From Candidatus Saccharicenans subterraneus (lineage in GTDB: Bacteria > Acidobacteriota > Aminicenantia > Aminicenantales > Saccharicenantaceae), in the NCBI GenBank assembly GCA_003426165.1, contig QUAH01000010.1, positions 1-64,000 on the forward strand: a stretch of DNA of 64,000 nt, written 5' to 3'. Below are positions 399 through 34,567 of this stretch, piece after piece (position 1 is the stretch's first letter; every line of letters starts with the position of its first letter). Made by a program: the position numbers and the translations under genes. The notes beneath the pieces are model-generated. The model had not been told where the DNA came from and ran no database searches. It saw only the letters and a list, made by a program, of their open reading frames with translations.

Positions 399-2591
399 AT
401 GAATTTCTGGTCAACAAGAAGGGGGAGTATGGTTTTTTACTTCCCGATCTTCATATTACTGGTCTTAGCCCTGGTTGCAGCAAGCGGCCTTAAGGCAGCC
501 GATGTCGTCGTTTATGATTTTGTGAAAAAAGCTCCTGAGGCCAAATGGTACCGGGCTATCTCCGCGGCCGGCGAACTTCCATGGAACGGTGCCGATAATG
601 ATAGCCGGGGCTTTGCCCGGCACGTGACCAATGCCGTACTGGAGGATGGTCAGACCATTTCCCAGGTTCTTCAGACCCATCCTGAATGGAAAAATGACGG
701 AAACATAATCGGGGTCTTTCCTGGAGTCAAGATTCCCGCCGGCGCTACCTTTAAGGCTACCGTGGGCTTTCTGAAAGGCGCCACCCAGTCCGATGGCGTC
801 AAGTTTTACGTTTCCATGGTTAGTGCCGGAGGCGGAGCGGTAATGTTGGCAGAGGTTCCGGCCAGGTATGACGGTAAGCTGGACCAGGTTTCGGTTGACC
901 TGTCACCCTATGCTGGCTCAACCGTGGATTTCCGGCTGTCGGTGTCCGCTGCCGGCAGGTCAGTGCAGGACTGGGCGGTCTGGGCATCTGCGGCCATCTA
1001 TGCCCCCCTGACCGTCCAGAAGGTTGGCCAGGTAGCTGACCTGAGCAAGGCCAAGGTTCCGGCCACCACCCCGCAGAAACCGGCCGGCGGGGTTGACCTG
1101 CAGCTGGTTAAACCTTCCATCATCAAAACCATCCCCCTTAACCCGGCCGGAGTGGCCCCGAGCCGTCATAAAGTCGAGGACATCGGCCCCCTGAACATAG
1201 AAGAACCCATGACCCTGCTCAACCGGGTTTTCAAGGATAATGAAAAGCCGAATACTTATTATTACCTTCCCCGGGAAATAAACCTGGTCCGCGATAGAGC
1301 CGCCGGTGGCTACCGGATAAGTGCTGTCTGGACCAATGACCAGAGGGTCAAGACCACCATGACCCTTAAGGCCAATGTCGACCCGGCCGATGTCAAGCTG
1401 ATGGAGGAAGCCCTGAAGGCGGCCCGGGGTCAACAGGCAGTCTTGCGCTCGTTGCCCTATGATGAAGCGGCCATAATAGACATGCAGGGCTGGGAAGACT
1501 GGGAAATTGAGAATATCAGGATCCCGAGTTTTGGCTCCCTGGAAACGGAATTGCCCATCAACATTGCCATGGCTCCGGATACTCTGGCTGAACTGAAGCC
1601 GCTTCTGGAAAAAGAAGGGTTGACTGCCGGGATGAAAATTAAGTCCGGGACCGTGGAGCGAGAGATTCCCATCAGGGTTGGCCTTAAATACTTTACAGGC
1701 CGCTGGTATTCGGGAGTGGAAGAGCTTGGCTTTTCCATAGACGAGAAGAATTCCGTTCTCTATCTCCACGGCGTCAGGAACCTTTCAGATTTTCCGATTA
1801 AAGTTTCTTCGGTCAGCCTGCGCTTCAGGCTGCCCAACGGCGAGGATGTCTACAAGAACCTTAAGTGCCTTAAGGAAACTGTAATCCAGCCCGGGCAGGC
1901 CCTGGACCTGGAAGTCCAGTTTGTGCCCAGGGGACTGCTACTGGCTGAGTACCGGAAGGCTTTTCCAACCGCGCCTCCAGCGCCAAAGAAAAAGAGTTCC
2001 CTTCTGGAGAAGGGCCTCGGAGCCTTGAAAGGCGAACTGGAGAAGAAACTGGACAAGGACAAGGTCCAGGAAGCCGAGGAACTCCTGGTCAAGGACGAGG
2101 TCGGCCAGCCGGCCAGTCCCAAGGTCGACGCCTTCTTCAAACAGTATGCCCGCAGTTTCTGGATGGAGATTGAACCCGATTTCAACTGCCAGCCCTGCCT
2201 GGACAAGATCTGGAGCAACATTGAAGTGGTTTCTTACATAGAAAGGATGAGGAAACTCCAGGTGGAAGTCCTGGCCAGCGTTTTCGACCCGGCGGCCTAT
2301 GACAGCCCGCTGGAGGTGGAAAAGGTCCGGGTGGAAATCCGTTCGCCCTACCTGAGCGCCCAGGGCCGGAGCGGGCTGGTAACCGGGATTGATTTCAACA
2401 AGAACAAGCTTAAAGAGCTGGTGACGGTTTACCTGCCAATGGCCAGCGGTGAGCAGTTCAATTTCGAGTACAAGATAAAGGCCGTTCTGAAAGACGGTCA
2501 GATTGCCGAGTCGGCCAGCTGGGAAACGGTGACCGACAGCCTGGATCTGACCGTAGGACCGTACCACATAAAAAACCTTTTCGGCAGATAG
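399..2591 (+). CDS. Exported protein of unknown function, first gene of a five-gene paralogue cluster
   Basis: I do not recognise a named family. The ATG at 399 follows an AAAGGAGA ribosome site; an in-frame TTG at 378 is less likely. The 730-residue product starts with a charged stretch, a long hydrophobic segment (about residues 12-35) and an ALKAAD-like cleavage region, so it should be exported. Residues 40-200 look strand-rich. The middle holds a NTYYYLP motif and a strand-rich segment like those in the next four genes. Residues 520-580 are a Lys/Glu-rich helical linker, and a CQPC pair lies at residues 597-600. The final 100 residues (FEYKIKAVLKDG) resemble the C-terminal module of the downstream paralogues. 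It is therefore probably a distant member of the same family, working outside the cytoplasm. It is separated from the next gene by 72 bases. Confidence 0.75.
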   Translation: MNFWSTRRGSMVFYFPIFILLVLALVAASGLKAADVVVYDFVKKAPEAKWYRAISAAGELPWNGADNDSRGFARHVTNAVLEDGQTISQVLQTHPEWKNDGNIIGVFPGVKIPAGATFKATVGFLKGATQSDGVKFYVSMVSAGGGAVMLAEVPARYDGKLDQVSVDLSPYAGSTVDFRLSVSAAGRSVQDWAVWASAAIYAPLTVQKVGQVADLSKAKVPATTPQKPAGGVDLQLVKPSIIKTIPLNPAGVAPSRHKVEDIGPLNIEEPMTLLNRVFKDNEKPNTYYYLPREINLVRDRAAGGYRISAVWTNDQRVKTTMTLKANVDPADVKLMEEALKAARGQQAVLRSLPYDEAAIIDMQGWEDWEIENIRIPSFGSLETELPINIAMAPDTLAELKPLLEKEGLTAGMKIKSGTVEREIPIRVGLKYFTGRWYSGVEELGFSIDEKNSVLYLHGVRNLSDFPIKVSSVSLRFRLPNGEDVYKNLKCLKETVIQPGQALDLEVQFVPRGLLLAEYRKAFPTAPPAPKKKSSLLEKGLGALKGELEKKLDKDKVQEAEELLVKDEVGQPASPKVDAFFKQYARSFWMEIEPDFNCQPCLDKIWSNIEVVSYIERMRKLQVEVLASVFDPAAYDSPLEVEKVRVEIRSPYLSAQGRSGLVTGIDFNKNKLKELVTVYLPMASGEQFNFEYKIKAVLKDGQIAESASWETVTDSLDLTVGPYHIKNLFGR

Positions 2592-2663
2592 CAATGGCGC
2601 GCCAAGGGGAAATTGCAAATAACATAAAAATTTAGAAAAGTTCAGGAAAATAAGGAGGCAGAG

Positions 2664-4352
2664 ATGCGGACTCCGTTAACTAAAAAGGCTGGGAGGCTAT
2701 TCTTGTTTTTTGCTCTGGTTCTGGTCGCTGTGGCCACTGGCCTTAGGGCCGAGGTGCTGCTGGACCGGGAGCCCATCCAGGTCACAAACGCCCTGCTATT
2801 GAGGGACCATGCCGACGAACACGGTTATCATTATATGCCCCTGGCGCCCAGGGTTGCTACCTGGCCGGACGGCAAGCCCAAGTTCAGCTTTATCCAGTAT
2901 GTCCGGACCGGGAAGGAGATTACGGGCGGCATTCTGCATTTTCTCTGTACCTTCGGTCTGACCAAGGAAGAGCTGGAAAAAGCCGAGCAGGAACTGAAAA
3001 GGATTGACAAGGATGGCAGGATAATCGGCCCGGTGATGTTTACCTCGGGAGAGTTTCACATCATTTCGGCCTCGGCCGGAGAGGGCGGAATATTCAGCCG
3101 CAGAATAGTTGGCACCGGCAAGGCCCCGCTTCTGGCCGGCTCAGAAGCCGCGGTCTCAATTGCCCTGACCGAAGAAGGCTCGACTCTGCTGATGGAATCA
3201 TTCAAGAAGCCCACTTCTGATATTTCGGTTCAGTTCGTCATGACCTACCAGGGGCTGACCCCCGCTTACCAGGCCCTGCTGACCGTGGACTGGGACAAGG
3301 TCTATGACCACAAGGAATTCAAGGCCGATGTCGGGCATTTTTTTGTCAGCGCCCAGATTCATAAAATCTATTCTCAATTGAGGGAGCAGGGAGCCATCAA
3401 GCTGGAGGTTATAGGCGAAGATGCCAAGATGGATGAACTCCTGGATACGGCCTACAACACCATTACCAGGATGATGTTTGAGGCCAAGCCGGTAAAGCCC
3501 GAGGATATAGGCAAGGCCGAGGCCAGCACTGGATCCAACTGGCTGGGCAAGCTGTTTGGCCAGGCCCATTTTGGCTTTGTCCGGAAGCAGGTCAAGCTGA
3601 GCGGCAAGTACACCGTGGACCTGACCAGGCGCAAGCGCGACCAGCGGGAAGTTCCCCTGACCGGAAATATCAGCGGTCTTTACAAGCAATATGGTAAAGA
3701 GGCGGAGTTCTTCAGCGTGGTGGACCTGGATGACCCGACCTTTGAAGAACGAACCATAAACGTCATCCTGGACGGCGAGGATTTCCAGACCTTTTCACAA
3801 TACCTGAATTTTGCGGGCATTACCTTTAAGAAGGAATACGAGAATGCCGACATGAAGTCCATCACCGAGGACCTGATTTTCGACCGGACCAAGTTCGGCC
3901 AGAACGGCAACAAGCTGTCGCTCAAATACCGGCGCAAGGGCGACCAGACAGACAAGTGGCTGGAGTACGAGTATAAGCCCATCTGGAGCTATGTCGGCGG
4001 GCTGGAAGTGGCCGGAGACTGGATCAAGACCAGCCAGCCGGTCATCACCCTGACTCCCCCCCATAAATATCGCTACATAGAAGTCCTGGCCGAAGAGGCC
4101 AACATGAATGAGCATGGTATCATCAGGATTGCCGTCCAGTTCAGGCACAAGAATTTTGGCCGGCAGCTGCAGAAGGAAGTGGTCCTGCGCAAGGGCGAAC
4201 CGCTTAACATCAACTACGTCTATTTCCACGAGCCAAACAACCTGGAGTATGAATACAACATTATCTGGCTGTTCAAGGATAACACCAGGGTTTCCTCCGG
4301 CTGGAAGAAAGCCACCGACCCCTTTATCTATGCCTACTATGAGAAGCTCTGA
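2664..4352 (+). CDS. Exported paralogue A of the unrecognised five-gene family
   Basis: 562 residues with a signal peptide cleaved near Ala29 and an AAGGAGG-type ribosome site. Two parts are shared with the genes at 5580 and 8360. The N-terminal module (residues 35-215) carries a DHAD...YHYMPLAPR box, GGILHF, a VSIALTEEG box and a GLTPAYQA...VDWDKVYD box. The C-terminal module (residues 310-562) carries SGKYTVDL, NISGLYKQYG, a DLDDPTFEER...ILDGEDF box and a final FIYAYYEKL. No catalytic motif or membrane anchor is evident. The predominance of alternating hydrophobic and charged residues suggests beta-sandwich modules. It is in line with its neighbours and very probably co-transcribed, as the next gene begins at its stop codon. 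Function unknown; secretion is inferred from the signal peptide. Confidence 0.8.
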   Translation: MRTPLTKKAGRLFLFFALVLVAVATGLRAEVLLDREPIQVTNALLLRDHADEHGYHYMPLAPRVATWPDGKPKFSFIQYVRTGKEITGGILHFLCTFGLTKEELEKAEQELKRIDKDGRIIGPVMFTSGEFHIISASAGEGGIFSRRIVGTGKAPLLAGSEAAVSIALTEEGSTLLMESFKKPTSDISVQFVMTYQGLTPAYQALLTVDWDKVYDHKEFKADVGHFFVSAQIHKIYSQLREQGAIKLEVIGEDAKMDELLDTAYNTITRMMFEAKPVKPEDIGKAEASTGSNWLGKLFGQAHFGFVRKQVKLSGKYTVDLTRRKRDQREVPLTGNISGLYKQYGKEAEFFSVVDLDDPTFEERTINVILDGEDFQTFSQYLNFAGITFKKEYENADMKSITEDLIFDRTKFGQNGNKLSLKYRRKGDQTDKWLEYEYKPIWSYVGGLEVAGDWIKTSQPVITLTPPHKYRYIEVLAEEANMNEHGIIRIAVQFRHKNFGRQLQKEVVLRKGEPLNINYVYFHEPNNLEYEYNIIWLFKDNTRVSSGWKKATDPFIYAYYEKL

Positions 4353-4367
4353 ATGAAGGAGGTCCAG

Positions 4368-5390
4368 TTGCGATTCAGGCCAGTGACCGGGCTTCCGATT
4401 CTCTTATGGCTGCTTCTGGCGCCAGGACTGAGGGCTGACCCGGTTCTGACCAGGCCAGAGACGGTGGCCGGGCGGATCATAGTTTATCCCGACCACCGGA
4501 GTCCCAAACTTTTTTACTACGTGCCCACCCGGCTCCACCTGAGCCAGACCTTCGGGAAACCCAATTTCTTTTTCTACAAGTATGTTTACGTTAATAACCA
4601 GGGAACGGCTGAACCCAGAACCACCGCCGGCGGAGTGCTGACCCTTTCGGTTGAGTTCGGCGATGAAACGGAAATCCTGAGAAGGGAAAAAGGGGAGCAA
4701 TTCGAGTACCGGCCGGTCCAGGTTGAAACCATAGAACTCAGCCTGAGCTACACCGGCCTGGAGAAACTGGAGGACCAGAAACCAGCTGGCGGGGACAAGA
4801 AGGCTCTTGGCTCGAATAAGATTCTCTGGACGGGGAAGAGCTTTACCTTTCCGCTGAGCGCGGCCTCGGCCTCTTATCTCTGGAAAATCTATGAAGAAAA
4901 GAAAGCCGCCAGCCTGAGCCTGGAGTGTACCTTTAGCTACGGCGGTTATGAAATCGACCAGGAAGGGAAATTGCAGCCGGGGGAGAGAAGCGGACGTCTC
5001 AGTTTCGACATCCCCGTTTCCATGGAACAAAACCCCGACCTTTTCCAGGTGATCAACCTGGCCCAGAAGTTCTCGTTCAATTACCGTAAGCTGAGCGTCA
5101 TCTGCTTTGACTTTGTTAACGGGCTGAATGGCAACATGGTCAAGATGACAGTCGAGGTGGAAAGCACCACCGCCCGGGGCCAGAAAGACGCCAAGATGGT
5201 GACTTTTTCCGCGGATAGCCAGCCGCAGTACAACCTGGAATTTAACGTTCCGGAAGCCAGGGGAGGAAAATACCGCTACCGGGTGACCAAAGTCTATGCC
5301 GACGGGCGTTCGGAAAGGGGCGACTGGCAGGAAGGGGATAATGCCTTCCTGGACTTATCAACCTATGAGCTGGTGATTAAGGATGATTGA
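4368..5390 (+). CDS. Short divergent exported paralogue B
   Basis: An ATG at 4353 abuts the previous stop codon, but a strong AAGGAGG at 4356-4362 is correctly spaced for an in-frame TTG at 4368, which I choose. That gives 340 residues beginning with a clean signal peptide cut near Ala23. It keeps diverged forms of the family boxes: YPDHRSPKLFYYVP near the start, GLEKL, and a C-terminal KYRYRVTKVYADGRSERGDW segment that matches the final domain of its neighbours. The long middle part found in the 562-residue paralogue is missing. It may be a degenerate or specialised subunit that pairs with the larger members. No enzymatic motif is visible. Confidence 0.75.
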   Translation: MRFRPVTGLPILLWLLLAPGLRADPVLTRPETVAGRIIVYPDHRSPKLFYYVPTRLHLSQTFGKPNFFFYKYVYVNNQGTAEPRTTAGGVLTLSVEFGDETEILRREKGEQFEYRPVQVETIELSLSYTGLEKLEDQKPAGGDKKALGSNKILWTGKSFTFPLSAASASYLWKIYEEKKAASLSLECTFSYGGYEIDQEGKLQPGERSGRLSFDIPVSMEQNPDLFQVINLAQKFSFNYRKLSVICFDFVNGLNGNMVKMTVEVESTTARGQKDAKMVTFSADSQPQYNLEFNVPEARGGKYRYRVTKVYADGRSERGDWQEGDNAFLDLSTYELVIKDD

Positions 5391-5579
5391 GGTTCTGAGC
5401 CGGACGATGACGATAGAGGACGCGCCGGTCGCACCGGCGACGAATCATCAGCCCGGCTTAATCCGCAATTTTCAGAATGCGGCAGGTCATGCTCATGGTT
5501 CTGACCATGATAGACAGTATATCAATGCCCGGTTTGAAGTTTCTGTTTCCCGGGTAGTTTTTAAGACAGGAGAGCTTTT

Positions 5580-8309
5580 ATGAAAAAGAAAACAATCTTG
5601 CTGTTGATTGGTCTCTCTTTCATTTTATCTTCCGGACTTCTGCTCCTGGCCGAGGTGGCGGTGGAGGAAGTGATACAAGCCGGGATGTATGTATTTTACC
5701 GGGACCATGCTGACCCGCATAAATACTACTACGTGCCCGGGGAGCCGCGGCTGGCGACCAGGAGGGACGGGACGCCGGAGTTTAGCTTTATCAAGTACAC
5801 CAAGACCGACAGCACGACGAAGGGCGGGGTGCTGCATTTTCTGGTGACCTGGGGTTTTACCAGCGGGGAGCTCAGCTCGGCCGAATCGGCCCTCAAGGGT
5901 ATAGACCCTCAGGCTAAACTGGCCGGGCCGGTGCCATTCAAGGAAGCGACTTTCCAGGTGATTTCGGCCACTGCCGGGAAGGACGGGATATTCAATCGTC
6001 GTATAGTTGGGGAGGGTAAGGCTCCGGTTCTGCCTGGCCAGAAGGCTGCGGTATCGATAGCGCTGACCGAGGAAGGGGCATCGTTGCTCTGGGAGTCATT
6101 CAAGAACCCGACTTCCGACGTATCGGTGCAGTATGTGCTTAAGTTTTCGGGGATAACGCCGGCCTTCCAGGCCAAGCTGAAGGTGGACTGGGACAAGGTT
6201 TACACCCAGCATGACATCAAGGCGGCGGTGGAAGGGACAGTGAAGGTGGTGAAGCTGCGGGCTGACCTGGGGGCGACGCTGGAGGAGCTGAGGCAGAAAG
6301 GGGCAATCCAGCTGGATGTTGTAGGTGAGAACGAGAACATGCAGAAGCTTCTGGAAACGGCCTACAACCACATCCTGCAGCTGATGTGCGACAAGGTTCC
6401 TGTGGGGAGCACGGCAGCTTCGAGAAGTAGTGCTTTCTTCAGGTTAAGGAATCCTGCTGACCTTAAGCATCCCTGGTCTGAACACCTCAGTTATGAGCGG
6501 CTGAATCCCGGAGTTCTGGCAACTCCGGATGATCTTGATAATACCTATCGAGGACCAAATGCCTGGGCCCGGCAGGAACAGCAGGTCTCGGGCCAGCAGC
6601 TTGATTGCAGTGCGGCAGACAGGAGAAGAGCGGACCAGCTTTATCAGAAAGGTCTGGCCCTGGCTGCGGAGAAAAAGTACCTGGAGGCCATCGACCAGTT
6701 CAAAAAGGCTTATGCTGCCTGTCCCGACCCGAAATATTATCTTCATGTCGGAACCTATTATCTGGATTACCTTTATGATTATAATATGGGATCCAGCCAT
6801 CTGAAAAAGTTTGTCGAGCTGGCCGAACAAAAAAATCTTTACAGCGCTGAAAGGGAAGGGGCTGCTCGCATAGTTGCGGCCATCGATGAAGCCCGTGAAC
6901 TCTTCAACCGGGGGAAGGCGCTGAGGGAAGAAGGGAAGTTTACCGAGGCTTCCGGGGAATTTCTCAGGTGCTATGAGCTGATCAAGAACCCGAGAGCCAT
7001 CTACAGCGCCGGGTTGTGTTATCGGGACCTCGGGGACAAGTTTGAAGAAAATCGGAGAGCCAACTATTCCACCGCAGTTGTCTACCTGAATGAGTTTCTC
7101 CAGAATTTCGGGGAAGCCTCGCCTGAGGCCGACCTGGACGGATTAAAGAATAATGCCCTGAACGTGGTGGCCGAGCTTAATCAGAAGATTGCCTCTCTTC
7201 CCGGGTATGTTCCACCCGCAAAACCCGAACAGGCCCAGCAGGCACAAACAGGGGGAGCTACAGCCACTGGAGCTCAGCAGGCCACAGCCGGGGCGGAGAG
7301 GGCTACTGCCGGGACGCAGGCCGGAGATGTGCGGGGTGCCCTGGGACAGCAGGCCACCTCATCGGGCCAGGCCAGCGGCACTCAGCAGGCTGCTTCCGGA
7401 CAGACCACAACCGGAACTACAGCCACGCAGACCACGACTCCGCCGGCTTCGACTTCCGGACAGTCTGGAAAACCGGCGCAGGCCACCACTCCGGCCGCCC
7501 CTGAAGTCAAGCCCATTGTCAGTGTCCAGCTCGGGTATAGCTTCAAACGGACCAAGCTGAGCGGCAAGTACGAGGTGGATATGAGGCGCCGCCTGCGCGA
7601 GGACCGGGAAATAGTGATGAGCGGCAACATCAGCGGGATTTACCAGAAGTACGGGGAAGACAGGAGATTTTTCACCGTGGTCAGCCTGGACGACCCGACC
7701 TTCCAGGAGAGGTCGGTGGAAGTGATACTGGACGGTCAGGATGCCGATGATTTTAAGAACTACGTCAACAGCGTATCGGTGATTTTCCGCAAGCAGCGAA
7801 TGGGCGGGCCGGTGCAGACCGGTGAGGTTAAGTTTTTTGAACAGCAGTTTGCCGAGAAGGGAAATCGGCTGAGCTTCAAGTACAGCCGGGTCAACGAGGC
7901 CTCGACCGAATGGTTGAATTACGAGTACAGGACGAAATGGGCGCTTTATGGCGGGGTGGAATGGGAGAGCGACTGGGTGAAGACGGATGACTCGGTGCTG
8001 ACGCTCACGCCTCCGGTTCGTCGCCGGACGATAGAGATCTCACTGGACGAGGACAACATCCTTCAGAACAAGATCAAGGCAGCGGCCATACAGGTGAAGC
8101 ATAATGTTTTCGGCAAGGATGTCCTGAAGGAAGTGGTTATTAATTATGACAAGGGCGACCCGCTGGTGGTTAACTACACTTACATGCACGAAGAGGGCAA
8201 GCCGGGCTACAGCTACCGGGTAATCTGGCTGACCCTGGATGGAAAGGAAGTGGAAACCTCCTGGGTCAACCGCGAGGGCCCCTTCATCTATGCCGTCTTC
8301 AATAAATAG
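5580..8309 (+). CDS. Exported paralogue C with inserted TPRs and a Gln/Thr/Ala-rich linker
   Basis: 909 residues; signal peptide cut near Ala24, ribosome site ACAGGAGAG before ATG 5580. Residues 30-275 and 645-909 are the two modules shared with the genes at 2664 and 8360 (DHADPHKYYYVP, VSIALTEEG, SGKYEVDM, NISGIYQKYG, SLDDPTFQER, final PFIYAVFNK). Between them lies extra sequence. Residues about 345-510 contain tetratricopeptide-like helices (ALAAEKKYLEAIDQFKKAY, GKALREEGKFTEASGEFLRCYEL), and residues about 545-640 are a low-complexity linker rich in Gln, Thr, Ala and Gly. TPRs bind proteins, so this member could recruit partners at the cell surface or in the periplasm (inference). The linker has no obvious cleavage or anchoring motif. 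Confidence 0.8.
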   Translation: MKKKTILLLIGLSFILSSGLLLLAEVAVEEVIQAGMYVFYRDHADPHKYYYVPGEPRLATRRDGTPEFSFIKYTKTDSTTKGGVLHFLVTWGFTSGELSSAESALKGIDPQAKLAGPVPFKEATFQVISATAGKDGIFNRRIVGEGKAPVLPGQKAAVSIALTEEGASLLWESFKNPTSDVSVQYVLKFSGITPAFQAKLKVDWDKVYTQHDIKAAVEGTVKVVKLRADLGATLEELRQKGAIQLDVVGENENMQKLLETAYNHILQLMCDKVPVGSTAASRSSAFFRLRNPADLKHPWSEHLSYERLNPGVLATPDDLDNTYRGPNAWARQEQQVSGQQLDCSAADRRRADQLYQKGLALAAEKKYLEAIDQFKKAYAACPDPKYYLHVGTYYLDYLYDYNMGSSHLKKFVELAEQKNLYSAEREGAARIVAAIDEARELFNRGKALREEGKFTEASGEFLRCYELIKNPRAIYSAGLCYRDLGDKFEENRRANYSTAVVYLNEFLQNFGEASPEADLDGLKNNALNVVAELNQKIASLPGYVPPAKPEQAQQAQTGGATATGAQQATAGAERATAGTQAGDVRGALGQQATSSGQASGTQQAASGQTTTGTTATQTTTPPASTSGQSGKPAQATTPAAPEVKPIVSVQLGYSFKRTKLSGKYEVDMRRRLREDREIVMSGNISGIYQKYGEDRRFFTVVSLDDPTFQERSVEVILDGQDADDFKNYVNSVSVIFRKQRMGGPVQTGEVKFFEQQFAEKGNRLSFKYSRVNEASTEWLNYEYRTKWALYGGVEWESDWVKTDDSVLTLTPPVRRRTIEISLDEDNILQNKIKAAAIQVKHNVFGKDVLKEVVINYDKGDPLVVNYTYMHEEGKPGYSYRVIWLTLDGKEVETSWVNREGPFIYAVFNK

Positions 8310-8359
8310 AATGCGATAGATTGAAAAATTGAAAACAAGCGAATAGCGAGGAGGCTAAG

Positions 8360-10063
8360 ATGTTTCGGAAAAAAATACTCGGTTTATTACTGGCAGTCTT
8401 CTGGATGGCCGGTTTTACCGCATATGCAGTGGCCGACGTGGAACTTGATTCAGCGCCCCTCCAGGTGGCCAATGCCATACTCTTCAAGGACCACGCTGAC
8501 CCGAACCTGTACTATTACATGCCGAACCAACCGCGCCTGGCCTACTGGCCGGACGGTACGCCCAAGCTTACGTTCTTAAAGTACACCAAGGCCGGGAAGG
8601 AAGAAGCCAAGGGTGGAATCCTGCATTTCTTCGTGAAGTACGGACTGGATGAACAGGAGCTGAACAGGGTCAGGCAGGAGCTGCTGAAGATAAATCCCAG
8701 GGCCAGCATCAAGGGGCCGCTGGTCTTCAAGAAGGGTTCGTTCATGGTCGTTTCTGCGGCCGTGGGCGAGGGGGGAGCTTTCACCCGGAAGATAATCGGC
8801 GAGGGCAAAGCCCCACTGATTTCCGGGTCGGAAGTTTCCGTTTCCATTGCCGTCACTCCCGAGGGAGCCACCTTCCTGGAAGAAGCCCTGCGCCAGCCGA
8901 CCTACCCGGTGAGCGTCAGGTTCGAGATGACCTACGAGGGGTTGACTCCCAAGTACCAGGCCACGGCCACCATTCACTGGTCCAAGGTGCGGGAGTATTT
9001 TGACCAGTACAGCAAGTGGAGAATTTACAAGAAAAAGAAGCTCGGAATCTGGACCTGGTATGTGCAGAAGGGAACCGGGGAACTTCGTGAAATAAAAGAT
9101 GAGATGACCTCGATAGGCGCAGTCAAGGTGGATATTACCGGCGAGGATCAGAACCTGGATGCCCTGATGCAGAGCCTGGTCGATACCATCATGAGGGAGA
9201 TGTTCGACACCAAGCTGGACCTGCCCGAAGAGGAACCGGCCAAGGAGGGCGAGGAATCATCAAAACCCCAGGACCGGCCCTACGGCGTCAGCACCACCAG
9301 GAAAAAGGTCAGCCGGACCGATGACTGGACCATAAACCTGACCAAGCGCCTGCGGCAGGAACGCGACACCGGCCCGATGGATGCCAGCATCGGCGACGTG
9401 CTTAGAAAATTCAAGAATAATAAGAAGGTCTATGACATAATTAACCTCGATGACCCCGACCTCCAGGACCGCGTGGTCTATGCCATCCTGGACGGCGAGG
9501 ATTTTGAGACTTTCAGGAAGTACATAAACTTCGTCACCGTCAGCTTCAAGAAGGTTCATAAGACCGGCGAGCCCACCACCCGGGACGTCATCTTCAATGC
9601 CCAGACCTTTGCCGAGCGGGGCAACATGCTGTCCTTTGTCTACCCCAGGCTGGGAGAGGGAGCCACCTGGCTGAGCTACGAATACAAGACGGTCTGGAGC
9701 TTTGTCGGCGGGATTAAAGTGGAAACCCCCTGGACCAAAAGCGAGGAAGCGGCCATAAACCTCTTCCCGACACACCGCTATCGCCAGATCGACATAATCG
9801 CCGACGAAGAAAACGTCAGGACCTACAACATCAAGCTGATCACGGTTACCTTCAAGAACAAGTTTGCCGACCGGGAGAAGACCGGCGAGGTGAAGCTGAT
9901 GCCAGGAGAAACACTCCTCGGAAAATATGAGTATGTCCATGCCGAAAATGACCTGAATTACCAGTACCAGGTGACCTGGTTGCTGGGCGACGGCCGCCGG
10001 GTGTCTTCAGGCTGGCAGACCACCACCGAACCTTTTGTCTATGCCCTTTACCAGGAGAAGTAG
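8360..10063 (+). CDS. Exported paralogue D of the unrecognised five-gene family
   Basis: 567 residues; ATG 8360 follows GAGGAGG, and a signal peptide is cut near Ala25. The same two modules occur: DHADPNLYYYMPNQPRLA, GGILHF, GLTPKYQA...HWSKV in the first half, and KRLRQERDT, INLDDPDLQDR, ILDGEDFETFRKY and a final PFVYALYQEK in the second. The joint between them is a short acidic stretch (EEEPAKEGEESSK), where the 5580 gene has TPRs. It is the last gene of the array; no convincing terminator is seen after it. Function unknown. Confidence 0.8.
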   Translation: MFRKKILGLLLAVFWMAGFTAYAVADVELDSAPLQVANAILFKDHADPNLYYYMPNQPRLAYWPDGTPKLTFLKYTKAGKEEAKGGILHFFVKYGLDEQELNRVRQELLKINPRASIKGPLVFKKGSFMVVSAAVGEGGAFTRKIIGEGKAPLISGSEVSVSIAVTPEGATFLEEALRQPTYPVSVRFEMTYEGLTPKYQATATIHWSKVREYFDQYSKWRIYKKKKLGIWTWYVQKGTGELREIKDEMTSIGAVKVDITGEDQNLDALMQSLVDTIMREMFDTKLDLPEEEPAKEGEESSKPQDRPYGVSTTRKKVSRTDDWTINLTKRLRQERDTGPMDASIGDVLRKFKNNKKVYDIINLDDPDLQDRVVYAILDGEDFETFRKYINFVTVSFKKVHKTGEPTTRDVIFNAQTFAERGNMLSFVYPRLGEGATWLSYEYKTVWSFVGGIKVETPWTKSEEAAINLFPTHRYRQIDIIADEENVRTYNIKLITVTFKNKFADREKTGEVKLMPGETLLGKYEYVHAENDLNYQYQVTWLLGDGRRVSSGWQTTTEPFVYALYQEK

Positions 10064-10312
10064 AAGTAAAAATTCTGAAGAGCAGAAAAAAATAAATAAA
10101 CAAAACTAAAGGAAGAGATCATTCTAGGTTGGAAGAATATTTTAGGCCATTATTTAATCACCGATCTAAAATAACAACGGCTGCTTAAACCTATAATTTG
10201 GAAATTAGAAAGACGAAGGAGCTCTTTGCTGGCAGGCGCCGAAGGTGAACCTTAAGGATGATCTTTTTTAACAAAGCCGATAATTTTATAATTTAGGATC
10301 CGGAAAGCAGGA

Positions 10313-11470
10313 ATGGTAAATGGTAAGTTGAAAAAATATTCAACGCTCATCTTGGTACTCATCGCTGCATCGCTGACAGCTGCTTCCTGTCGGCAAAAGA
10401 ATGGAGTTGAAATGGACGCGGTTGAGGCCCTGGTAAGGAAAACGGTAGGTGCTGATGAACCCGGACTGGCCCTGGCCCTGGTACAGGATGGCCGGGTCTT
10501 GTTCAGGGCAGGGCGGGGGGTAGCCGATATCAGAAGCGGACGTCCCATAGATACCGGGACCAATTTCCGCCTGGCCTCGCTGACCAAGCAATTCACGGCC
10601 ACGGCTATCATGCTGCTGGTAAGGGAAGGAAAGCTCGATTATGAAACGCACCTGACAGATATTTTCCCCGATTTTCCGGAATATGGAAAGGAAATAACCA
10701 TCAGGCATCTGCTGACCCATACTTCCGGACTCCCGGATTATGAAAATCTCATGCCGGAAGCTAAGCCGAACCTTCCGGTTGAAGACCAGCAAATCAATGA
10801 TTACCAGGTGCTTGAACTCCTGAAAGGGGAGAAGCAGGGCAAATTCAGGCCCGGGACAAACTGGGATTACAGCAACTCGGGTTACGTGGTTCTCGGGCTG
10901 ATAGTGGAAAAAGTCTCTGGAATGGCCTTCGGGATCTTTCTGAGCGAAAAAATATTCAAACCCCTGGGAATGAAGGCGACGGTCCTGTATGAAAAAGGAA
11001 TTTCTGAAGTTGAAAACAGGGCCTTCGGGCATGTCCCCAAGGATGGAAATTGGATAGTCAGGGACCAGAGCCTGACCTCGGCCACCAGAGGCGACGGCTG
11101 CATTTATTCATCGGTTGACGACTTAATTCTCTGGGATAAAGCCTGGAAGGAAGGGACTTTGCTGAGCAGGGAAGAAATGGCTCTGGCCCTGACCCCGGTT
11201 GAAGTTCCGCAAAAGGGACCGGTTGATCCTTATAGCCAGCCGGCTGCCTATGGCTTCGGCTGGTTCCTGAATCCCTGGAAGGGATACCAGCGCGCCTGGC
11301 ATTACGGCGAAACCGCCGGTTTTCGGACAGCCATTCATCGCTTTCTTGAAACCGGGCTGACAGTCATCGTGCTCTGCAACCGCGAAGATATTGAGGCTTC
11401 CGGCCTCGCTTTAAGGCTGGGTGACATCTTCCTGGCCGGGAAAGCGCCCGGCAAAGGAAGAAGATATTAA
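10313..11470 (+). CDS. Beta-lactamase-fold serine hydrolase, lipoprotein
   Basis: 385 residues of the class C beta-lactamase / D-alanyl-D-alanine carboxypeptidase clan. The nucleophile motif is S89-L-T-K92 and the second motif is Y186-S-N188; a late HYGETAGF box is a plausible counterpart of the KTG element. The N-terminus has a hydrophobic segment ending TAASC, so Cys26 may be lipidated, although the lipobox is weak at position -3. Family members cleave peptides, esters or D-amino-acid bonds, and the substrate cannot be read from sequence. A 249-base A+T-rich gap separates it from the array upstream. It seems to be an independent gene. Confidence 0.85.
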   Translation: MVNGKLKKYSTLILVLIAASLTAASCRQKNGVEMDAVEALVRKTVGADEPGLALALVQDGRVLFRAGRGVADIRSGRPIDTGTNFRLASLTKQFTATAIMLLVREGKLDYETHLTDIFPDFPEYGKEITIRHLLTHTSGLPDYENLMPEAKPNLPVEDQQINDYQVLELLKGEKQGKFRPGTNWDYSNSGYVVLGLIVEKVSGMAFGIFLSEKIFKPLGMKATVLYEKGISEVENRAFGHVPKDGNWIVRDQSLTSATRGDGCIYSSVDDLILWDKAWKEGTLLSREEMALALTPVEVPQKGPVDPYSQPAAYGFGWFLNPWKGYQRAWHYGETAGFRTAIHRFLETGLTVIVLCNREDIEASGLALRLGDIFLAGKAPGKGRRY

Positions 11471-11494
11471 GGGCAGGGTGCTGGTAAAGGCGGT

Positions 11495-11520
11495 AATATA
11501 TGAATGGTTATTCATATATT
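11495..11520. promoter_or_regulatory. Palindromic operator-like site 1 (upstream of the DUF456 gene)
   Basis: A perfect 10-base inverted repeat, AATATATGAA (11495-11504) and TTCATATATT (11511-11520), is separated by TGGTTA. It lies 28 bases before the ATG at 11549. The same arms and 6-base spacing recur at 22957, 39011 and 58851. The layout resembles the 12-2-12 operators of ArsR/SmtB metal-sensing repressors; that comparison is from memory and no regulator gene is in the window. Confidence 0.55.
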
Positions 11521-11548
11521 CTGTCTCCATCTTAGAGGAGGGGACTGA

Positions 11549-12034
11549 ATGTTGAACGTAATTTTAATTATAGCCGGGGCGATATTGCAGCTCCTGGGGC
11601 TGGCCGGATGCGTGTTGCCCGTGCTGGCCGGACCGCCTCTGAATTTTGTCGGTCTCCTGTTGCTGGGCCTGGCCAGGGGCTGGAAAATGTTCAGCCCGTC
11701 ATTGTGGCTGATACTTGTCGGTATCACTCTTATTACCGTGATTCTTGATTATTTGCTACCCATTGGCGGGGCCAGAAAGTATGGCTCAACGAAATGGGGC
11801 ACCTGGGGTGCTTTTCTGGGCATGCTGGTTGGAGTATTTTTCTTCCCCCCCGTGGGTCTTATAATCGGTGCTTTTTTGGGCGCGGTTGTTGGAGAGCTCC
11901 TGGCCGGCAAAGAAAACAGGGAAGCGCTCAGGGCCGGCTGGGGCGTATTTATCGGCTACTTTGTTTCCATGCTGTTAAAACTGGTCGCTTCGGGCGTCAT
12001 GACCTTCTTTTTCATCAGGACCCTTGTGAAATAA
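11549..12034 (+). CDS. DUF456 family membrane protein
   Basis: 161 residues with about four hydrophobic segments and Gly-rich helices (LLGLAGCVLPVLAGPPL near the start; GAFLGAVVGELLAG in the second half). This is the pattern of DUF456, small bacterial inner-membrane proteins with no established function. A strong GAGGAGGGG precedes the ATG. The palindrome at 11495-11520 sits in its leader, so it may share control with moaA and the aldehyde dehydrogenase. It converges with the DUF362 gene. Confidence 0.8.
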   Translation: MLNVILIIAGAILQLLGLAGCVLPVLAGPPLNFVGLLLLGLARGWKMFSPSLWLILVGITLITVILDYLLPIGGARKYGSTKWGTWGAFLGMLVGVFFFPPVGLIIGAFLGAVVGELLAGKENREALRAGWGVFIGYFVSMLLKLVASGVMTFFFIRTLVK

Positions 12035-12067
12035 TAATTCAACAGTAATTATCTCGGTCTTGCCAGC

Positions 12068-12964
12068 CTAAACCAGGATTTCTTTGGCCCAGCCCAGCTT
12101 CTTAATTTCTATGTTTTCCAGCTTGCTCTGGCCCAGCTTGTAAACGGTGTCGGCTGCTTCGATGCAGATGGGTGGGGGAGAGATGGGCCAGGGCTCACCG
12201 CGAAGTTCGTCCCTTTTCGCCTGGATGATTTTCAAACCAACGGCGTCGAGGGCTACCGGGTCGGTGCTGGCCAGCAGTCCCTTATAGGGCCAGCGGTAGC
12301 GCGGGTCGAACTGCGGTCCCTTGTCGCAGACCGGGCGCAGGGCGTCGACAATTATCAGCCTGGTTTTTCCTTTGACCTGGGGCAGGTGCCAGATTTCTCC
12401 CAGCTTGGCGCTGTCTTCGTAATGGTAATTCCTGGGAGCACCGGAGAACATGATGTAATTCTTTATGACCGTCCCGATTCCGGTCAGCCAGTGAGCTTTG
12501 AGGCCCGGGACAGAAATCAGGGCGGTAATTGGCTCCAGGTCGACCTTTCGGCCCTGGGCGTTTCGGATATTTTCTTCCGGTAGGCCGGCGGCCACCAGCG
12601 ATTCTTTGATTACATCCAGGAGTTCCTGGTGAGTCGGGTTCATCATGGGGGTCGGGACCAGGCCCACAACATCCTTCGGGCTGACCAGCGACAGCCAGGC
12701 CTGCTTGACATCTTTTTTGCCCGTTATTTCCAGCAGAATCCTGTCCACCATCCCGGCCAGAATTTTCTTGTTGACATTCATCTGGTCATCCAGGACATTT
12801 TCATCACGGACCAGCAGGACCAGGCTCTTGCCTCCGGCCTTCTGGACGGCTTCTGCGGCCAGCGATTTTTTCACCCAGTCAGGTGTAACCAGGGTGAGCC
12901 CCAGGGTGGTGCCGACGGTTCCCCTTATAAAATCCCGCCGGGTAATTGTTCTTTTCTCTTTCAT
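12068..12964 (-). CDS. DUF362 protein with twin-arginine signal
   Basis: 298 residues. The N-terminus has TITRRDFIRGTVG, a twin-arginine motif followed by a hydrophobic segment, so it is probably exported folded by the Tat system. The body (LVRDENVLDD, VGLVPTPMMNPTHQELLDVI, GTVIKNYIMF, TDPVALDAVGL) matches DUF362, often found in iron-sulfur proteins, but I see no CxxCxxC cluster here. GAGGAGGG precedes the start. The DUF6599 gene lies 41 bases upstream on the same strand, suggesting co-expression. The Tat signal hints at a cofactor; none is visible. Confidence 0.8.
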   Translation of the reverse strand: MKEKRTITRRDFIRGTVGTTLGLTLVTPDWVKKSLAAEAVQKAGGKSLVLLVRDENVLDDQMNVNKKILAGMVDRILLEITGKKDVKQAWLSLVSPKDVVGLVPTPMMNPTHQELLDVIKESLVAAGLPEENIRNAQGRKVDLEPITALISVPGLKAHWLTGIGTVIKNYIMFSGAPRNYHYEDSAKLGEIWHLPQVKGKTRLIIVDALRPVCDKGPQFDPRYRWPYKGLLASTDPVALDAVGLKIIQAKRDELRGEPWPISPPPICIEAADTVYKLGQSKLENIEIKKLGWAKEILV

Positions 12965-13005
12965 TGAACCCTCCTCTTATTAATTTCTTACTATTTTTGA
13001 TTTTA

Positions 13006-14037
13006 TCATCTCAGCTCCAGCTGGACAAACAATTTCTTAACCGCGGCTTCTTCCGGCGCCTCAAAGACCAGGACCAGGTAGTTACCGGCGAGCTTCCAGC
13101 CCAGCCAGCCGTCTTCTACCTGGATGGCTTTTTCTTTCTCAGAGAGAGAGATTTCTGCCAGCCTTTCCGCTTTTTCCTGTAGATAAGCTCCCAGGAAATC
13201 GGCCAGGGCCGCCCCGGCCTTCTGTACTTCCGGGTACTTGATTATTATCATGCGGGCCGACTTTTTATTAGCAAGATCACGCTGGGTCCATTCCGTGTAA
13301 ATGGCCTCGCGGGTCGGGTCAAGATGCAGAATGTTCTCGTGGCTGAGATAGTATAAAGAATTCAATATCAGGTGGGAATGGAAGTAGCTGGTTCTGTCTT
13401 TTTTAATCTGCCAGATGCTATCTGCTTTGGGCCTGATGACATCGAGGAGCGCGGGAAATGTGGCTTGAGAAGCGTGGCCGGCGATGGTTTTGCCCAGTTT
13501 CAGGATGATTTCTTTAACCCCGGGAGTTTCACGCAGGGCCAGGACGCGTAGATAAAGGTTATCTACGCGGGCCCGCAGCAGGCCCTCACCATAAAGCGCT
13601 GTATATGCAGGGCAAACGGGGTTCTCAGGAAGGGGACCGGTCCCGGGACTCAGGTTGGCTGGCTCGCCCGACCAATCGAGAGACAGCAGACCAAAGGCCT
13701 CGTCCGGGTGCTTCATCTCATAGATTTCAACCAGGATTTCGTTTTCAGCCCCATCCAGGTATTTATAAACAAGGAGCCTCTCAAATTTATAGGCCAGGTA
13801 GAGTTCGCCACCGCCGTCCATGTAATCAAAAATAGTCTCCCGGGTTATCGTCTGCGGGGGACCTTCCAGTTTCCAGCTGCCTATTATTTCCGGCAGGCTG
13901 ATGCTGTCAGCTCTAATCATGTCTTCCTCTCCTTTAGAACAGGCAAAAGAAAAAGCAAATAGAAAAAGCAGGAACAGGGCCGGGAGGCCAATATACTTTC
14001 TTTCGGGTTCGTTGCTGGCCATAGCTTTGGGGATCAA
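13006..14037 (-). CDS. DUF6599-like putative lipoprotein
   Basis: 343 residues from a TTG at 14037; an in-frame ATG at 14022 is an equally possible start. The hydrophobic leader ends FSFACS, a poor but possible lipobox. The mature part begins with IIGSWKLEG and has a YMDGGGELYLAYKFERL box with EIYEMKHPDEAFGLLS, the hallmark I associate with DUF6599 proteins of Acidobacteria-type genomes. Function is unknown. It is transcribed just ahead of the Tat-signal DUF362 gene, so the two may act together outside the cytoplasm. Confidence 0.7.
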   Translation of the reverse strand: MIPKAMASNEPERKYIGLPALFLLFLFAFSFACSKGEEDMIRADSISLPEIIGSWKLEGPPQTITRETIFDYMDGGGELYLAYKFERLLVYKYLDGAENEILVEIYEMKHPDEAFGLLSLDWSGEPANLSPGTGPLPENPVCPAYTALYGEGLLRARVDNLYLRVLALRETPGVKEIILKLGKTIAGHASQATFPALLDVIRPKADSIWQIKKDRTSYFHSHLILNSLYYLSHENILHLDPTREAIYTEWTQRDLANKKSARMIIIKYPEVQKAGAALADFLGAYLQEKAERLAEISLSEKEKAIQVEDGWLGWKLAGNYLVLVFEAPEEAAVKKLFVQLELR

Positions 14038-14231
14038 TGTCCTTTGAAATTAAATTTTAGCCCGGTTCTCCTTTTTTATCCATAGATATTTTTGCCATAA
14101 AATAACAATTACCCGGTCTGCGTCGTATTAAGAAATAGGATGGTTCCCGAGGCCTTGCTTTGCCTGAATGGGCCTGAAGCTAATTGAGACAGGATCAGTT
14201 TTAATTTACATTATAAAAAGGGAGGGTTTCT

Positions 14232-14756
14232 ATGTGTAAAAGAAAAATCATGGAATGGTGGCTCTCTATCTTTCTTCTATTAATTGCCATGATTCCTGTA
14301 ACTGAAGCCATGGCCCAGCAGGCGCCACCGAAAGATGGGTATGCCCTGCTGGATTCTCTAAGCCAGGTCTTCGATGTCATTTCTACTGACCGGGATTATC
14401 TCCAGAAAGTCAACCAGCTTATCACTGGCCTGATGGTTGAGGCCCGCCGGGCCCGGGACAAGAATCTCATCGACAGGGTGTTCTTCGCCCGGTATCACCG
14501 GCTTCTCGGCCTGATCAAGCTTACCCTTGACCCGGACCCTGAAAAGATTCTGACCCCGGTCATCGACCAGGTGGTTGAAGATTTTATCCGCGAGGTCCTG
14601 ACTGAAGACTGGAGAGCCGAGAGGTCGGAAAACATGCTGCTGCTGGCCACGGCCATACGCGATGAAATTATCAACCTCCGGCTCCATCTGGATGACCTGG
14701 AGAAAAAAGAAAGATTGATAAGGGAATGGGACCAGAAAATGAGGCGGGCAGAATAG
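14232..14756 (+). CDS. Small exported helical protein of unknown function
   Basis: 174 residues; GGGAGGG precedes ATG 14232. A signal peptide (hydrophobic residues 9-22, cleavage near AMAQQ) is followed by an all-helical, charged sequence without cysteine after the signal. No family recognised. The end (LDDLEKKERLIREWDQKMRR) could form a coiled coil. The gene stands alone between unrelated neighbours. Confidence 0.7.
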   Translation: MCKRKIMEWWLSIFLLLIAMIPVTEAMAQQAPPKDGYALLDSLSQVFDVISTDRDYLQKVNQLITGLMVEARRARDKNLIDRVFFARYHRLLGLIKLTLDPDPEKILTPVIDQVVEDFIREVLTEDWRAERSENMLLLATAIRDEIINLRLHLDDLEKKERLIREWDQKMRRAE

Positions 14757-14760
14757 AAGC

Positions 14761-14814
14761 CGCGGATCAAAATCCGGAGATGGTCTCCTGAATCGGACCT
14801 GAATCTCCGCCGCG
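14761..14814 (+). other. Possible hairpin after the small exported gene
   Basis: CGCGG (14761-14765) can pair with CCGCG (14810-14814), and CGGAGAT (14775-14781) with ATCTCCG (14803-14809), a two-part stem just past the stop codon at 14756. No T-run follows, so it is not a standard terminator. It may be a 3' end structure or chance. Confidence 0.25.
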
Positions 14815-14922
14815 TTGCTTCCCCAAATTCCTCATTGCCCGGATACTATCTCATGGCCGGAAAGAAAATAGCGGTTGACTTTGGCCGCTATAAGTGAAAC
14901 CATGGGGCGGCGGAGGGAATTA

Positions 14923-15774
14923 ATGTGCAATTTCTGTCACCAGCACGGGGAAGGGAAGAAGTGGTACCTGGAAGCCAGGAACTACTCTGAAGACCTCCTG
15001 AGCGACCTCAAGAGGCGCCGGTTCATCGAGAATTTTTTCGCTTACGGGCCGGACAGCTTGAAGAAGAGTGAGCAGCAGCTCCAGCTCCTGGACCGGCTTC
15101 CCGCCCTGCTGAGGGGATTCATCCGCAAGAAAGTTACTAAAAGGCAGATGCCCTACCACTTCGGCCAGGTCATCCCGATCGAGGACGTGGAAAAAATTCT
15201 GGAAATGACCACTTCTGTAGTTCGCCTGGCCTGCATCTGTCGCCACTCTCTCCTGGGTTCCGAGCAACGTTTCTGCTACGGCCTGACCATTTCTCCCCAG
15301 GGGAACGGGATGTCCAGCATCTTGAAAGAAATTGACGCCTCTTACCTGATAGGTCCGCAGACCGGAGGCCTGGAGTACCTGACAAAAGAAGAAGCCCTGG
15401 AGCACATGCGGCAATGTGAACTGGACGGATTATGCCACAGCCTCTGGACTTTTATCACCCCGTTTATCGGCGGGCTATGTAATTGCTCTTTGCCCGGGTG
15501 CATGGCCCTGAGGACTACCGTGTTGCACAAGACCCCGGTTATGTTCAGGGGAGAATACCTGGCCGTCGTTGACCAGGAGAAATGCATCGCCTGTGGTGAG
15601 TGCCAGAAAATCTGTCCGTTTGAGGCTTATCTTCCCGGCAAAAATGGAGATAAGGCGGCGGTCAATATAAGAAAATGCTATGGCTGCGGAATCTGCCGAG
15701 GTGTCTGCCCGGCTGAAGCCATCAGCCTGGTCGACCGCCAGTCTGTGCCCGAGGTGGCCCAGCTCTGGCTCTGA
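14923..15774 (+). CDS. CxCR-type iron-sulfur protein with a C-terminal 2[4Fe-4S] ferredoxin domain
   Basis: The ATG at 14923, after GGAGGG, gives 283 residues; an upstream in-frame TTG at 14875 lacks a good ribosome site. The protein starts MCNFCHQH. It has a middle ACICRHS...FCYGL segment and LCNCSLPGCM, like proteins whose first domain holds CxCR and CNCC boxes, then a bacterial ferredoxin domain with CIACGECQKICP and CYGCGICRGVCP. The last part should bind two [4Fe-4S] clusters and carry electrons; the extra cysteines may hold another. No signal peptide, so it is cytoplasmic. A tungsten aldehyde oxidoreductase in the same window needs ferredoxin, but a link is only conjecture. Confidence 0.75.
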   Translation: MCNFCHQHGEGKKWYLEARNYSEDLLSDLKRRRFIENFFAYGPDSLKKSEQQLQLLDRLPALLRGFIRKKVTKRQMPYHFGQVIPIEDVEKILEMTTSVVRLACICRHSLLGSEQRFCYGLTISPQGNGMSSILKEIDASYLIGPQTGGLEYLTKEEALEHMRQCELDGLCHSLWTFITPFIGGLCNCSLPGCMALRTTVLHKTPVMFRGEYLAVVDQEKCIACGECQKICPFEAYLPGKNGDKAAVNIRKCYGCGICRGVCPAEAISLVDRQSVPEVAQLWL

Positions 15775-15973
15775 ATATTAGAATCGATATTGACAAGCCA
15801 AACAACATTCCTTTTTCTAATTTCTAATAGGCCACCAATCTCCGATTTTTCTTGACTTTGCCCGGGCCGGAATTCATGCTTGATTATGGAGCAGAGGGAA
15901 GGAAAAGATCATTTCCAAAACCGAGATAATCTTTTTCTCAAATAGTTTATTCTGACCAGGAAAGGAGAGAGGA

Positions 15974-16423
15974 ATGGGCATCTTTGGCAAATCGTTCAGC
16001 GAGAAGGTGCAGGAGGCGGTTGATATCATCAACAAGTCAGGCCTCGGAGTTGAGAACCTGAGAGCAAAAATTGAGGGCAAGGTGGTAACCCTGGAAGGGC
16101 TGGCCGATAGCATGGAAGCCAAGGGCAGGGCCATGCTGGAGTTCAACAAGATGGTCAACACGGAAAATACCATAAACCGGATTCAGGTTAAGGCTGAAGC
16201 CAAGGCTCCGACCCCGCCAGGTGCAACTCTTCCGGGGCCGGCCGCGGCCACCGATTATGAAATTTACGAGGTCAAACCGGGCGACACCCTGGGCCACATC
16301 GCCCAGCGCTTCTACGGCAAGGCCAGTCTTTACCCCAAAATCTTTGAAGCCAACCGGGACGTCCTGACCAACCCGGACCTGATAAAGGTCGGGCAGAAGC
16401 TGAAAATCCCAAGACTCAAATGA
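15974..16423 (+). CDS. BON and LysM domain protein (Kbp/YgaU type)
   Basis: 149 residues, the length of E. coli Kbp (YgaU). Residues 8-75 form a BON domain (VQEAVDIINKSGL, GKVVTLEGLADS). After a Pro/Ala linker, residues 95-149 form a LysM domain (YEVKPGDTLGHIAQRFYG, NPDLIKVGQKLKIP). There is no signal peptide. Kbp is a cytoplasmic potassium-binding protein; LysM elsewhere binds peptidoglycan, so the role here is by homology only. A strong AAAGGAGAG precedes ATG 15974, and its stop overlaps the start of the next gene by four bases. Confidence 0.85.
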   Translation: MGIFGKSFSEKVQEAVDIINKSGLGVENLRAKIEGKVVTLEGLADSMEAKGRAMLEFNKMVNTENTINRIQVKAEAKAPTPPGATLPGPAAATDYEIYEVKPGDTLGHIAQRFYGKASLYPKIFEANRDVLTNPDLIKVGQKLKIPRLK

Positions 16424-16968: not shown

Positions 16969-17216
16969 CGAGCTTTTTTCCTGAACAGGCTGATAATAAA
17001 GAGGATTATCAGCGCACCGACGATAGCCCCGATGAAGCCGGCTGTTTGGCCGGGCTGATAAATGCCCAGGGCTTTGCCCAGGTAGGTGGCCACAAACGAC
17101 CCGGCTATGCCGAGCAGGGTGGTCATGATCCAGCCCATGTTTTCTTTGCCGGGAAAAATGAACTTGGCGATTATGCCGGCGACCAGGCCCAGAAGAATGG
17201 TCCAGATGATATGCAT
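16965..17216 (-). CDS. GlsB/YeaQ/YmgE-type small membrane protein
   Basis: 83 residues with three hydrophobic helices and glycine zippers (GLVAGIIAKFIFPG, GIAGSFVATYLGKALG, GFIGAIVGALIILFI), the standard pattern of the transglycosylase-associated/GlsB family, small stress-induced inner-membrane proteins. GGAGGGAG precedes the ATG. It is transcribed toward the DUF4126 gene. Confidence 0.9.
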   Translation of the reverse strand: MHIIWTILLGLVAGIIAKFIFPGKENMGWIMTTLLGIAGSFVATYLGKALGIYQPGQTAGFIGAIVGALIILFIISLFRKKAR

Positions 17217-18486: not shown

Positions 18487-18498
18487 ACTGAATTTTCA

Positions 18499-34554: not shown

Positions 34555-34567
34555 GTAAGAAGTTATT

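Follow-up and report, generated by a model that had tools for sequence, protein, structure and literature searches.

Five exported paralogues of Candidatus Saccharicenans subterraneus as candidate subunits of a hetero-oligomeric scaffold

The window analyzed here is the first 64 kb of contig QUAH01000010.1 of Candidatus Saccharicenans subterraneus. It opens with an array of five genes, g1–g5, which fills positions 399–10,063 and encodes paralogous exported proteins. We propose, with a probability of about one half, that g1–g5 build an exported hetero-oligomeric scaffold whose targeting head is swappable and which, in other organisms, also has a swappable enzyme. Across phyla, relatives of these proteins follow a one-of-each rule for four classes of subunit, and this rule, together with export and selective constraint, argues for a stoichiometric complex. 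The varied heads of the g1-like proteins and the varied hydrolases encoded after the class D gene point to one part for targeting and another that does the work. We infer the formation of the complex, the contacts between its subunits, their location past the inner membrane, the binding of a target by g1, the recruitment of an enzyme, and the target itself.

The five open reading frames (ORFs; Table 1) are consecutive and lie on the same strand, with intergenic gaps of 72, 0, 189 and 50 bp in order from g1 to g5. All five N-termini combine basic residues at the start with a hydrophobic core and an AxA-like site, which is the pattern of a Sec-type signal peptide. An initial annotation made from the letters alone had described five same-strand genes with signal peptides, and the ORFs and N-terminal features bear this out. 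By a simple rule, a lipobox is absent from the N-termini of g1–g5. Among the 103 family members placed in the tree described below, 92 pass a simple hydrophobicity rule for a signal and 11 fail; we read the failures as mostly ORFs taken too far upstream or located on GC-rich contigs.

The proteins g2, g4 and g5 are plain paralogues across two modules, and g3 and g1 are remote members of the same family. The g2 and g5 proteins share 41% identity over nearly their full length (E 1.5e-147 one way and 9e-152 the other), and g2 and g4 share 52% and 42% over the two modules. A search of the own genome with g2 matched only g2, g3, g4 and g5. The homology of g3 to the family was recovered by hhalign at 99.3% probability (E 1e-20) in a comparison of 15 diverse g3 proteins with 22 diverse family members. 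The g1 protein is the most distant member, and its homology finds support only with diverse sets of g1-like and g3-like sequences. A g1 profile built from close orthologues alone fails (4.8% against alignment A1 and 6.7% against A3), whereas g1 cores compared with g3, both as diverse sets, give hhalign 96% (E 2.8e-9) in an 87-column stretch around the NTYYYLP box. The g3 profile also picks up the two ends of the core, in the correct order, in several g1-like proteins (for example locus L069, full E 2.4e-12). The initial annotation had credited all five proteins with a common set of boxes. The first of these is also present in g3, as PDHRSPKLFYYVP, and g1 carries DNEKPNTYYYLP in common with the family, whereas GLTP.YQA, D.DDP, ILDGEDF and PF.YA are confined to g2, g4 and g5, where they are partly altered, and the NISG box to g2 and g4. 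Likewise, the two modules with different inserts between them are real for g2, g4 and g5, whereas g3 and g1 stand apart as remote members. Between the modules, g4 is ~350 residues longer than g2 and contains TPR-like and low-complexity sequence; judged by region lengths, this part is also expanded in class D members elsewhere.

Profile searches in other genomes brought up relatives in several phyla, together with g1-like and g3 partners and a recurring hydrolase slot. A scan of the GTDB species genomes with alignment A1 yielded 47 loci. Beyond Aminicenantes, relatives with 26–38% identity in the best segment were found in Bacteroidota, Armatimonadota, Kiritimatiellae and Thermoanaerobaculia and in metagenome-assembled genomes labelled Gammaproteobacteria, Syntrophales, Desulfotignum and Deltaproteobacteria. 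The last label, that of L083 (G080), may be wrong because its coordinates and scores equal those of G837, which is placed in the phylum of the window. The family is rare, being present in 10 of 396 sampled genomes of the window's phylum (own genome included) and in 2 of 395 sampled Bacteroidota genomes (centre included).

A tree of 103 full-length members delimits four classes, represented by 18 (A), 15 (B), 21 (C) and 18 (D) rows, and no locus contributes more than one row to a class. Fifteen loci hold one each of A, B, C and D in the order A-B-C-D (L061, L064–L067, L069–L076, L079 and L083), and the members of L062, L068 and L077 fit this order with two classes less clear. As these 15 loci, all outside Aminicenantes, keep one of each class in one order, the exported multi-subunit assembly suggested by the initial annotation gains support as the probable product of the array. 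Named Flavobacteriaceae strains carry the locus, among them the marine Hyunsoonleella ulvae (L075), Tenacibaculum agarivorans (L069) and Flavivirga sp. (L070), which makes the class A–D rule testable. The g2, g4 and g5 proteins of Aminicenantes group into a single clade next to B and D. Their set was therefore either re-made there through duplication or homogenised, two histories between which the tree does not decide. The repeated duplication at one locus that had been proposed fits this clade, whereas the classes A–D themselves predate the spread over phyla. In several loci, a small family protein and a protein Y (229–255 aa, with invariant His and Cys) are encoded between B and C. Protein Y, with the motif YAT.GKTGH.GIA (L079, 9145–9897; L061, 11614–12324), is possibly another cysteine hydrolase, and its L079 copy has no Pfam match. 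In the Kiritimatiellae locus L063 (9229–15979), the array is split into several frames, with a gene inside it that looks transposase-like by eye.

A g1-like protein followed by g3 accompanies 14 of the 15 A-B-C-D loci; in L067 the contig starts within g3. The pair stands just before A in ten loci and after the hydrolase gene in four (L069, L071, L074 and L075). The profile of the g1 core matches 17 of 17 g1-like proteins (E 9e-56 or better), 11 of which lie outside the profile, and the N-terminal heads attached to these matching cores vary: L064 contains six ricin-lectin stretches and L069 three DUF7452 stretches, and no domain match was obtained for the heads of L061, L072, L074 and L083. The head domain of the Saccharicenans g1 recurs as separate genes beside the arrays L068, L074 and L125.

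A hydrolase occupies the slot after class D in 14 of the 19 loci outside Aminicenantes that are of the signal-bearing type and readable past D (L061, L064–L071, L074–L077, L079, L082–L084, L125 and L158). The count leaves out L062, L072, L073, L078, L080 and L081, which meet contig ends or are incomplete, and the broken-up L063. Ten of the positives were assigned by Pfam and comprise astacin with C70 (L069, L071, L074 and L075), M43 with C70 (L082 and L084), C70 (L076 and L079), an amidase (L083) and subtilases (L158, the second match there being partial). The remaining four (L061, L066, L067 and L070) were assigned by the HExxH motif within a family, X, that is otherwise unmatched; in L061, the gene directly after D is an X copy lacking the motif, and the HExxH copy follows it. 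The catalytic cysteine of C70 is kept in seven of nine aligned domains. Of ten upstream flank genes scanned as a control, none encodes a secreted peptidase or amidase; comparison with the 14 of 19 gives a Fisher p of 2e-4, which is only a guide because the loci are related (L064 and L065 come from two Aquimarina, and L069, L071, L074 and L075 from four related Flavobacteriaceae).

A rapidly evolving binding system had been suggested as an alternative, which the substitution rates contradict. In ten gene comparisons of g1–g5 with two congeners, dN/dS was 0.034–0.161, with g4 the least constrained, and these values are rough because dS (0.83–2.9) is near or above 1. Such ratios indicate purifying selection and therefore a function under constraint. 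In all six contigs where the five genes are readable (the window, L025, L027, L028, L030 and L126), the order g1–g5 is intact.

The proteins were said to belong to an unrecognised family, and this description stands. Nothing in g1–g5 scored above the cut-off in Pfam, NCBIfam or PHROGs, where only rows with E of at least 0.2 were returned from the last; the sole near exception is TPR_2 in g4, just under the Pfam cut-off (E 4.4e-6; 26.9 bits against 27). PADLOC matched none of the ten proteins given (g1, g2, g3 and seven relatives) at E 0.01, so a known anti-phage defence system is unsupported among them. Phage origin is unsupported as well, given the PHROGs result, the lack of a tblastn match in phage records for one class B member from Aquimarina, and the scan of viral contigs with alignment A1, in which 0 of 29 candidate stretches were confirmed; nor did one class B query support plasmid carriage. 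Searches of PDB sequences with g2 and with A7, A4, A3 and A2 gave weak rows only (best E 0.024).

The AlphaFold model of the g2 N-module has a predicted local distance difference test (pLDDT) value of 79.2 and a predicted template modelling (pTM) score of 0.65. Fold searches were dominated by generic immunoglobulin (Ig)/FN3 rows. For the N-module, no Foldseek match was obtained at E 1e-3, and no row for MACPF or the cholesterol-dependent cytolysins (CDC) appeared among the 50 VIA rows listed, although absence from such a list does not exclude the fold; no named fold was prominent in its lists, which proves nothing in itself. From these models and searches, which the initial annotation had called for, the architecture of the family is predicted to be Ig-like sandwiches with an alpha/beta insertion; the sandwiches of the C-module were recovered by Foldseek, and the N-module is without a clear solved relative. 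The same N-module model (2748–3698) gave one significant structural hit, A0A7S7YF07, an uncharacterised protein from the giant virus Medusavirus stheno T3. None of the searches made assigned all members confidently to a characterised family. In the literature searched, no title or opening of an abstract describes such a family, which is weak evidence, since coverage was partial and there is no name by which to search for these proteins. The family and the system thus seem to be undescribed by the libraries and fold searches used, and our word "system" has sequence evidence behind it only. The definition of the family alone still gives boundaries to proteins that the searched libraries leave blank.

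All the above can be put together in a working model. Each subunit would be a chain of Ig-like sandwiches with an alpha/beta insertion specific to the family, and different subunits would fill different positions of one periplasmic or extracellular complex. The g1 subunit would contribute an N-terminal head that can be exchanged and whose probable role is to bind glycans or some other target on a surface. The enlarged insert of the g4 or class D subunit, TPR-like in g4, would probably act as a platform for docking. For most relatives outside Aminicenantes, the hydrolase encoded after D might then be the working enzyme held against the target. If true, this would be a new kind of exported assembly spread across several phyla, with the modular logic of effector systems and built from an unclassified family.

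Several observations weigh against this model. No slot-type hydrolase follows the array in the window or in its Aminicenantes kin. The C70, X and Y profiles have no match in the 14 Aminicenantes relative loci searched or in L126 (L085, described below, is a further Aminicenantes locus), and C70 is found in 0 of the 15 genomes searched from the genus and family. As no enzyme is linked in Saccharicenans, the complex there may use an unlinked enzyme, or it may only bind or anchor. Even outside Aminicenantes, the slot lacks an active hydrolase in 5 of 19 loci, where it holds X copies without HExxH (L064 and L065), TPR proteins (L125) or nothing recognised (L068 and L077); L064, L077 and L125 were judged by Pfam, and L065 and L068 by the C70, X and Y profiles only. 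The cysteine of C70 is replaced by serine in both M43-C70 proteins. The loci compared in the Fisher test are related to each other, and the ten upstream control genes were chosen by hand; the nearest gene was exchanged for the next in L061, as it was too small, and for a farther one in L064, as the nearest is conserved with the array. The 103-member tree was built by a quick method, and long branches were flagged in it.

Much of the same evidence might be explained by independent exported binding proteins, either adhesins or nutrient-binding proteins, that are co-regulated without sharing a complex, with the hydrolases as co-secreted digestive enzymes. Chains of Ig-like domains are common in monomeric adhesins, generic Ig/FN3 rows lead our fold searches, and a lectin head with secreted proteases would suit the degradation of polymers. 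However, one member for each of four classes in a fixed order across phyla is hard to explain without a stoichiometric relation, and we regard this explanation as rather unlikely. A smaller chance still is given to a role in controlling or trapping proteases, as alpha-2-macroglobulin and complement components do; the client would be the protease encoded nearby. Alpha-2-macroglobulin, TEP and complement proteins consist of chains of Ig/MG-like sandwiches, which the fold rows suggest as a possible feature of the array proteins too, and they are likewise linked to proteases; a Pfam search of g1–g5 with E up to 1 found no domain of the A2M family.

The least probable of the explanations considered, and in our view very improbable, is a hetero-oligomeric pore that the neighbouring protease would activate, on the lines of the two-component CDC-like toxins known from Bacteroidota. 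In PMC11169675, those toxins are described with an activating protease on the target cell, and they resemble the array in their adjacent genes, in paralogous exported subunits acting together and in the involvement of proteolysis. The array differs from the toxins as described there in having five subunits and another architecture, and its relatives carry protease genes within the locus. Moreover, no PF01289 (Thiol_cytolysin) or MACPF match was found in g1–g5 by Pfam with E up to 1, domain 4 is a generic Ig-like sandwich, the list for the N-module contains no cytolysin row, and the proteins of the window have no lipobox, unlike the SpII pairs of PMC11169675. A CDC/MACPF pore, which we considered, is thus unsupported by the Pfam and fold searches.

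The proposed scaffold also invites comparison with two broader kinds of system. In polymorphic toxin and effector systems, too, a conserved gene core is joined by a targeting part and an enzyme that can both be exchanged, and the slot of 14 of the 19 loci outside Aminicenantes, although not the window and its kin, may resemble them in placing an exchangeable enzyme at a fixed position. Unlike those systems, the array type encodes the enzyme as a separate gene, and its core family matched no library model. Extracellular contractile injection systems are similar as multi-gene machines with variable binding and enzyme parts; unlike them, the loci have no phage-tail-like gene above the cut-off among the scanned neighbours, a Tail_P2_I row in L092 being below it.

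A sister family lacks the signal. Relatives of ~716–977 aa form arrays in G190, from the Bacteroidota sample (L092), and in G701 and G845, from the window's own phylum (L123, L124 and L153–L157). Ten of these relatives align with the family at hhalign 100% (E 3e-49), and a hydrophobic N-terminus is absent from 13 of the 13 signal-less proteins examined. The L092 array (4789–18800), which includes two larger genes without a match and a g3-like gene of 278 aa, adjoins a gene with a caspase domain. G701 and G845, which belong to one genus, gave 11 and 12 matches, within ~39 kb of one contig in the former and on two contigs in the latter, and no caspase was found among the scanned neighbours in G701. 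These arrays raise the question of one scaffold serving both extracellular and intracellular proteolysis. A bolder version of the proposed scaffold would be a cross-phylum exported machine, in which ordered Ig-chain subunits and a lectin-like head carry a swappable lytic enzyme, either a protease or a peptidoglycan amidase, to a target cell or polymer; the cytoplasmic sister beside the caspase-like protease would act likewise inside the cell, and the Saccharicenans array would be a variant whose enzyme comes from elsewhere. We consider this version speculative and put it well below the scaffold itself.

A g2 search of 60 genomes (own genome included) matched 15, including 8 of 18 other members of the genus, and this count is too low because in G005, which gave no g2 match, g1 is still present where a contig ends. 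In G010, the array is flanked by a conserved HD-domain gene on one side and by g8, a Tat-signal gene, on the other, 10.2 kb apart. The two genes are ~1 kb apart, without an array, in G014 and G006. G015 likewise lacks the array at this site, and there relatives of g6–g8 adjoin a small gene and the end of the HD gene. None of the three genomes with these array-free sites (L161, L162 and L163 in G014, G006 and G015) had a g2 match. Three congeners with the flanks but without the array indicate that it was gained or lost as a unit at one site. The neighbouring g6 (10,313–11,470), serine beta-lactamase-like by eye only, was rejected as the array enzyme in the window: it lies next to the array in L025 and L036, whereas L027, L028, L030 and L032 lack it there, and a g6 relative also stands without an array in G015. 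Locus L025 (6343–12038, G012) has a tandem g4 pair, of which one copy is 97% like the window g4 and the other differs mainly in the insert. In L085 (7942–10939, Aminicenantes bin112), separate N- and C-terminal family pieces surround a C39/C70-like papain-fold gene.

Table 1 Features of the g1–g5 array in the window.
Feature	Positions	Strand	Description	Basis
g1	399–2591	+	730 aa, exported; unique N-terminal domain, then remote family core	ORF, signal peptide, core homologues in other phyla, remote g3 homology
g1 N-terminal head, ~residues 31–218	489–1052	+	NPCBM resemblance very weak (E 0.076, below cut-off)	
g1 C-terminal core	1170–2591	+	common to g1-like proteins of other phyla	alignment A10 and profile matches
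g2	2664–4352	+	562 aa, exported; both modules, without insert	
g2 N-module, residues 29–345	2748–3698	+	predicted Ig/MG-like sandwich with large alpha/beta insertion; without clear solved relative	AlphaFold, fold searches
g2 C-module	3744–4349	+	two predicted Ig/FN3-like sandwiches, ~residues 361–462 and 468–562	AlphaFold, Foldseek and VIA rows
g3	4353–5390	+	345 aa, exported short member; start abuts g2 stop	
g4	5580–8309	+	909 aa, exported; large insert between modules	
g4 insert and linkers, ~residues 276–650	6405–7529	+	TPR-like and low-complexity	Pfam row, alignment A1, region lengths
g5	8360–10063	+	567 aa, exported; both modules	

A scan for promoters and terminators stayed at chance level, with 7 promoter-like sites against 5.6 expected and 11 terminator-like sites against 13.1 expected. 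Farther along the window, positions 26,001–38,000 have a lower G+C content (0.37–0.48 against ~0.55) and are possibly a foreign island.

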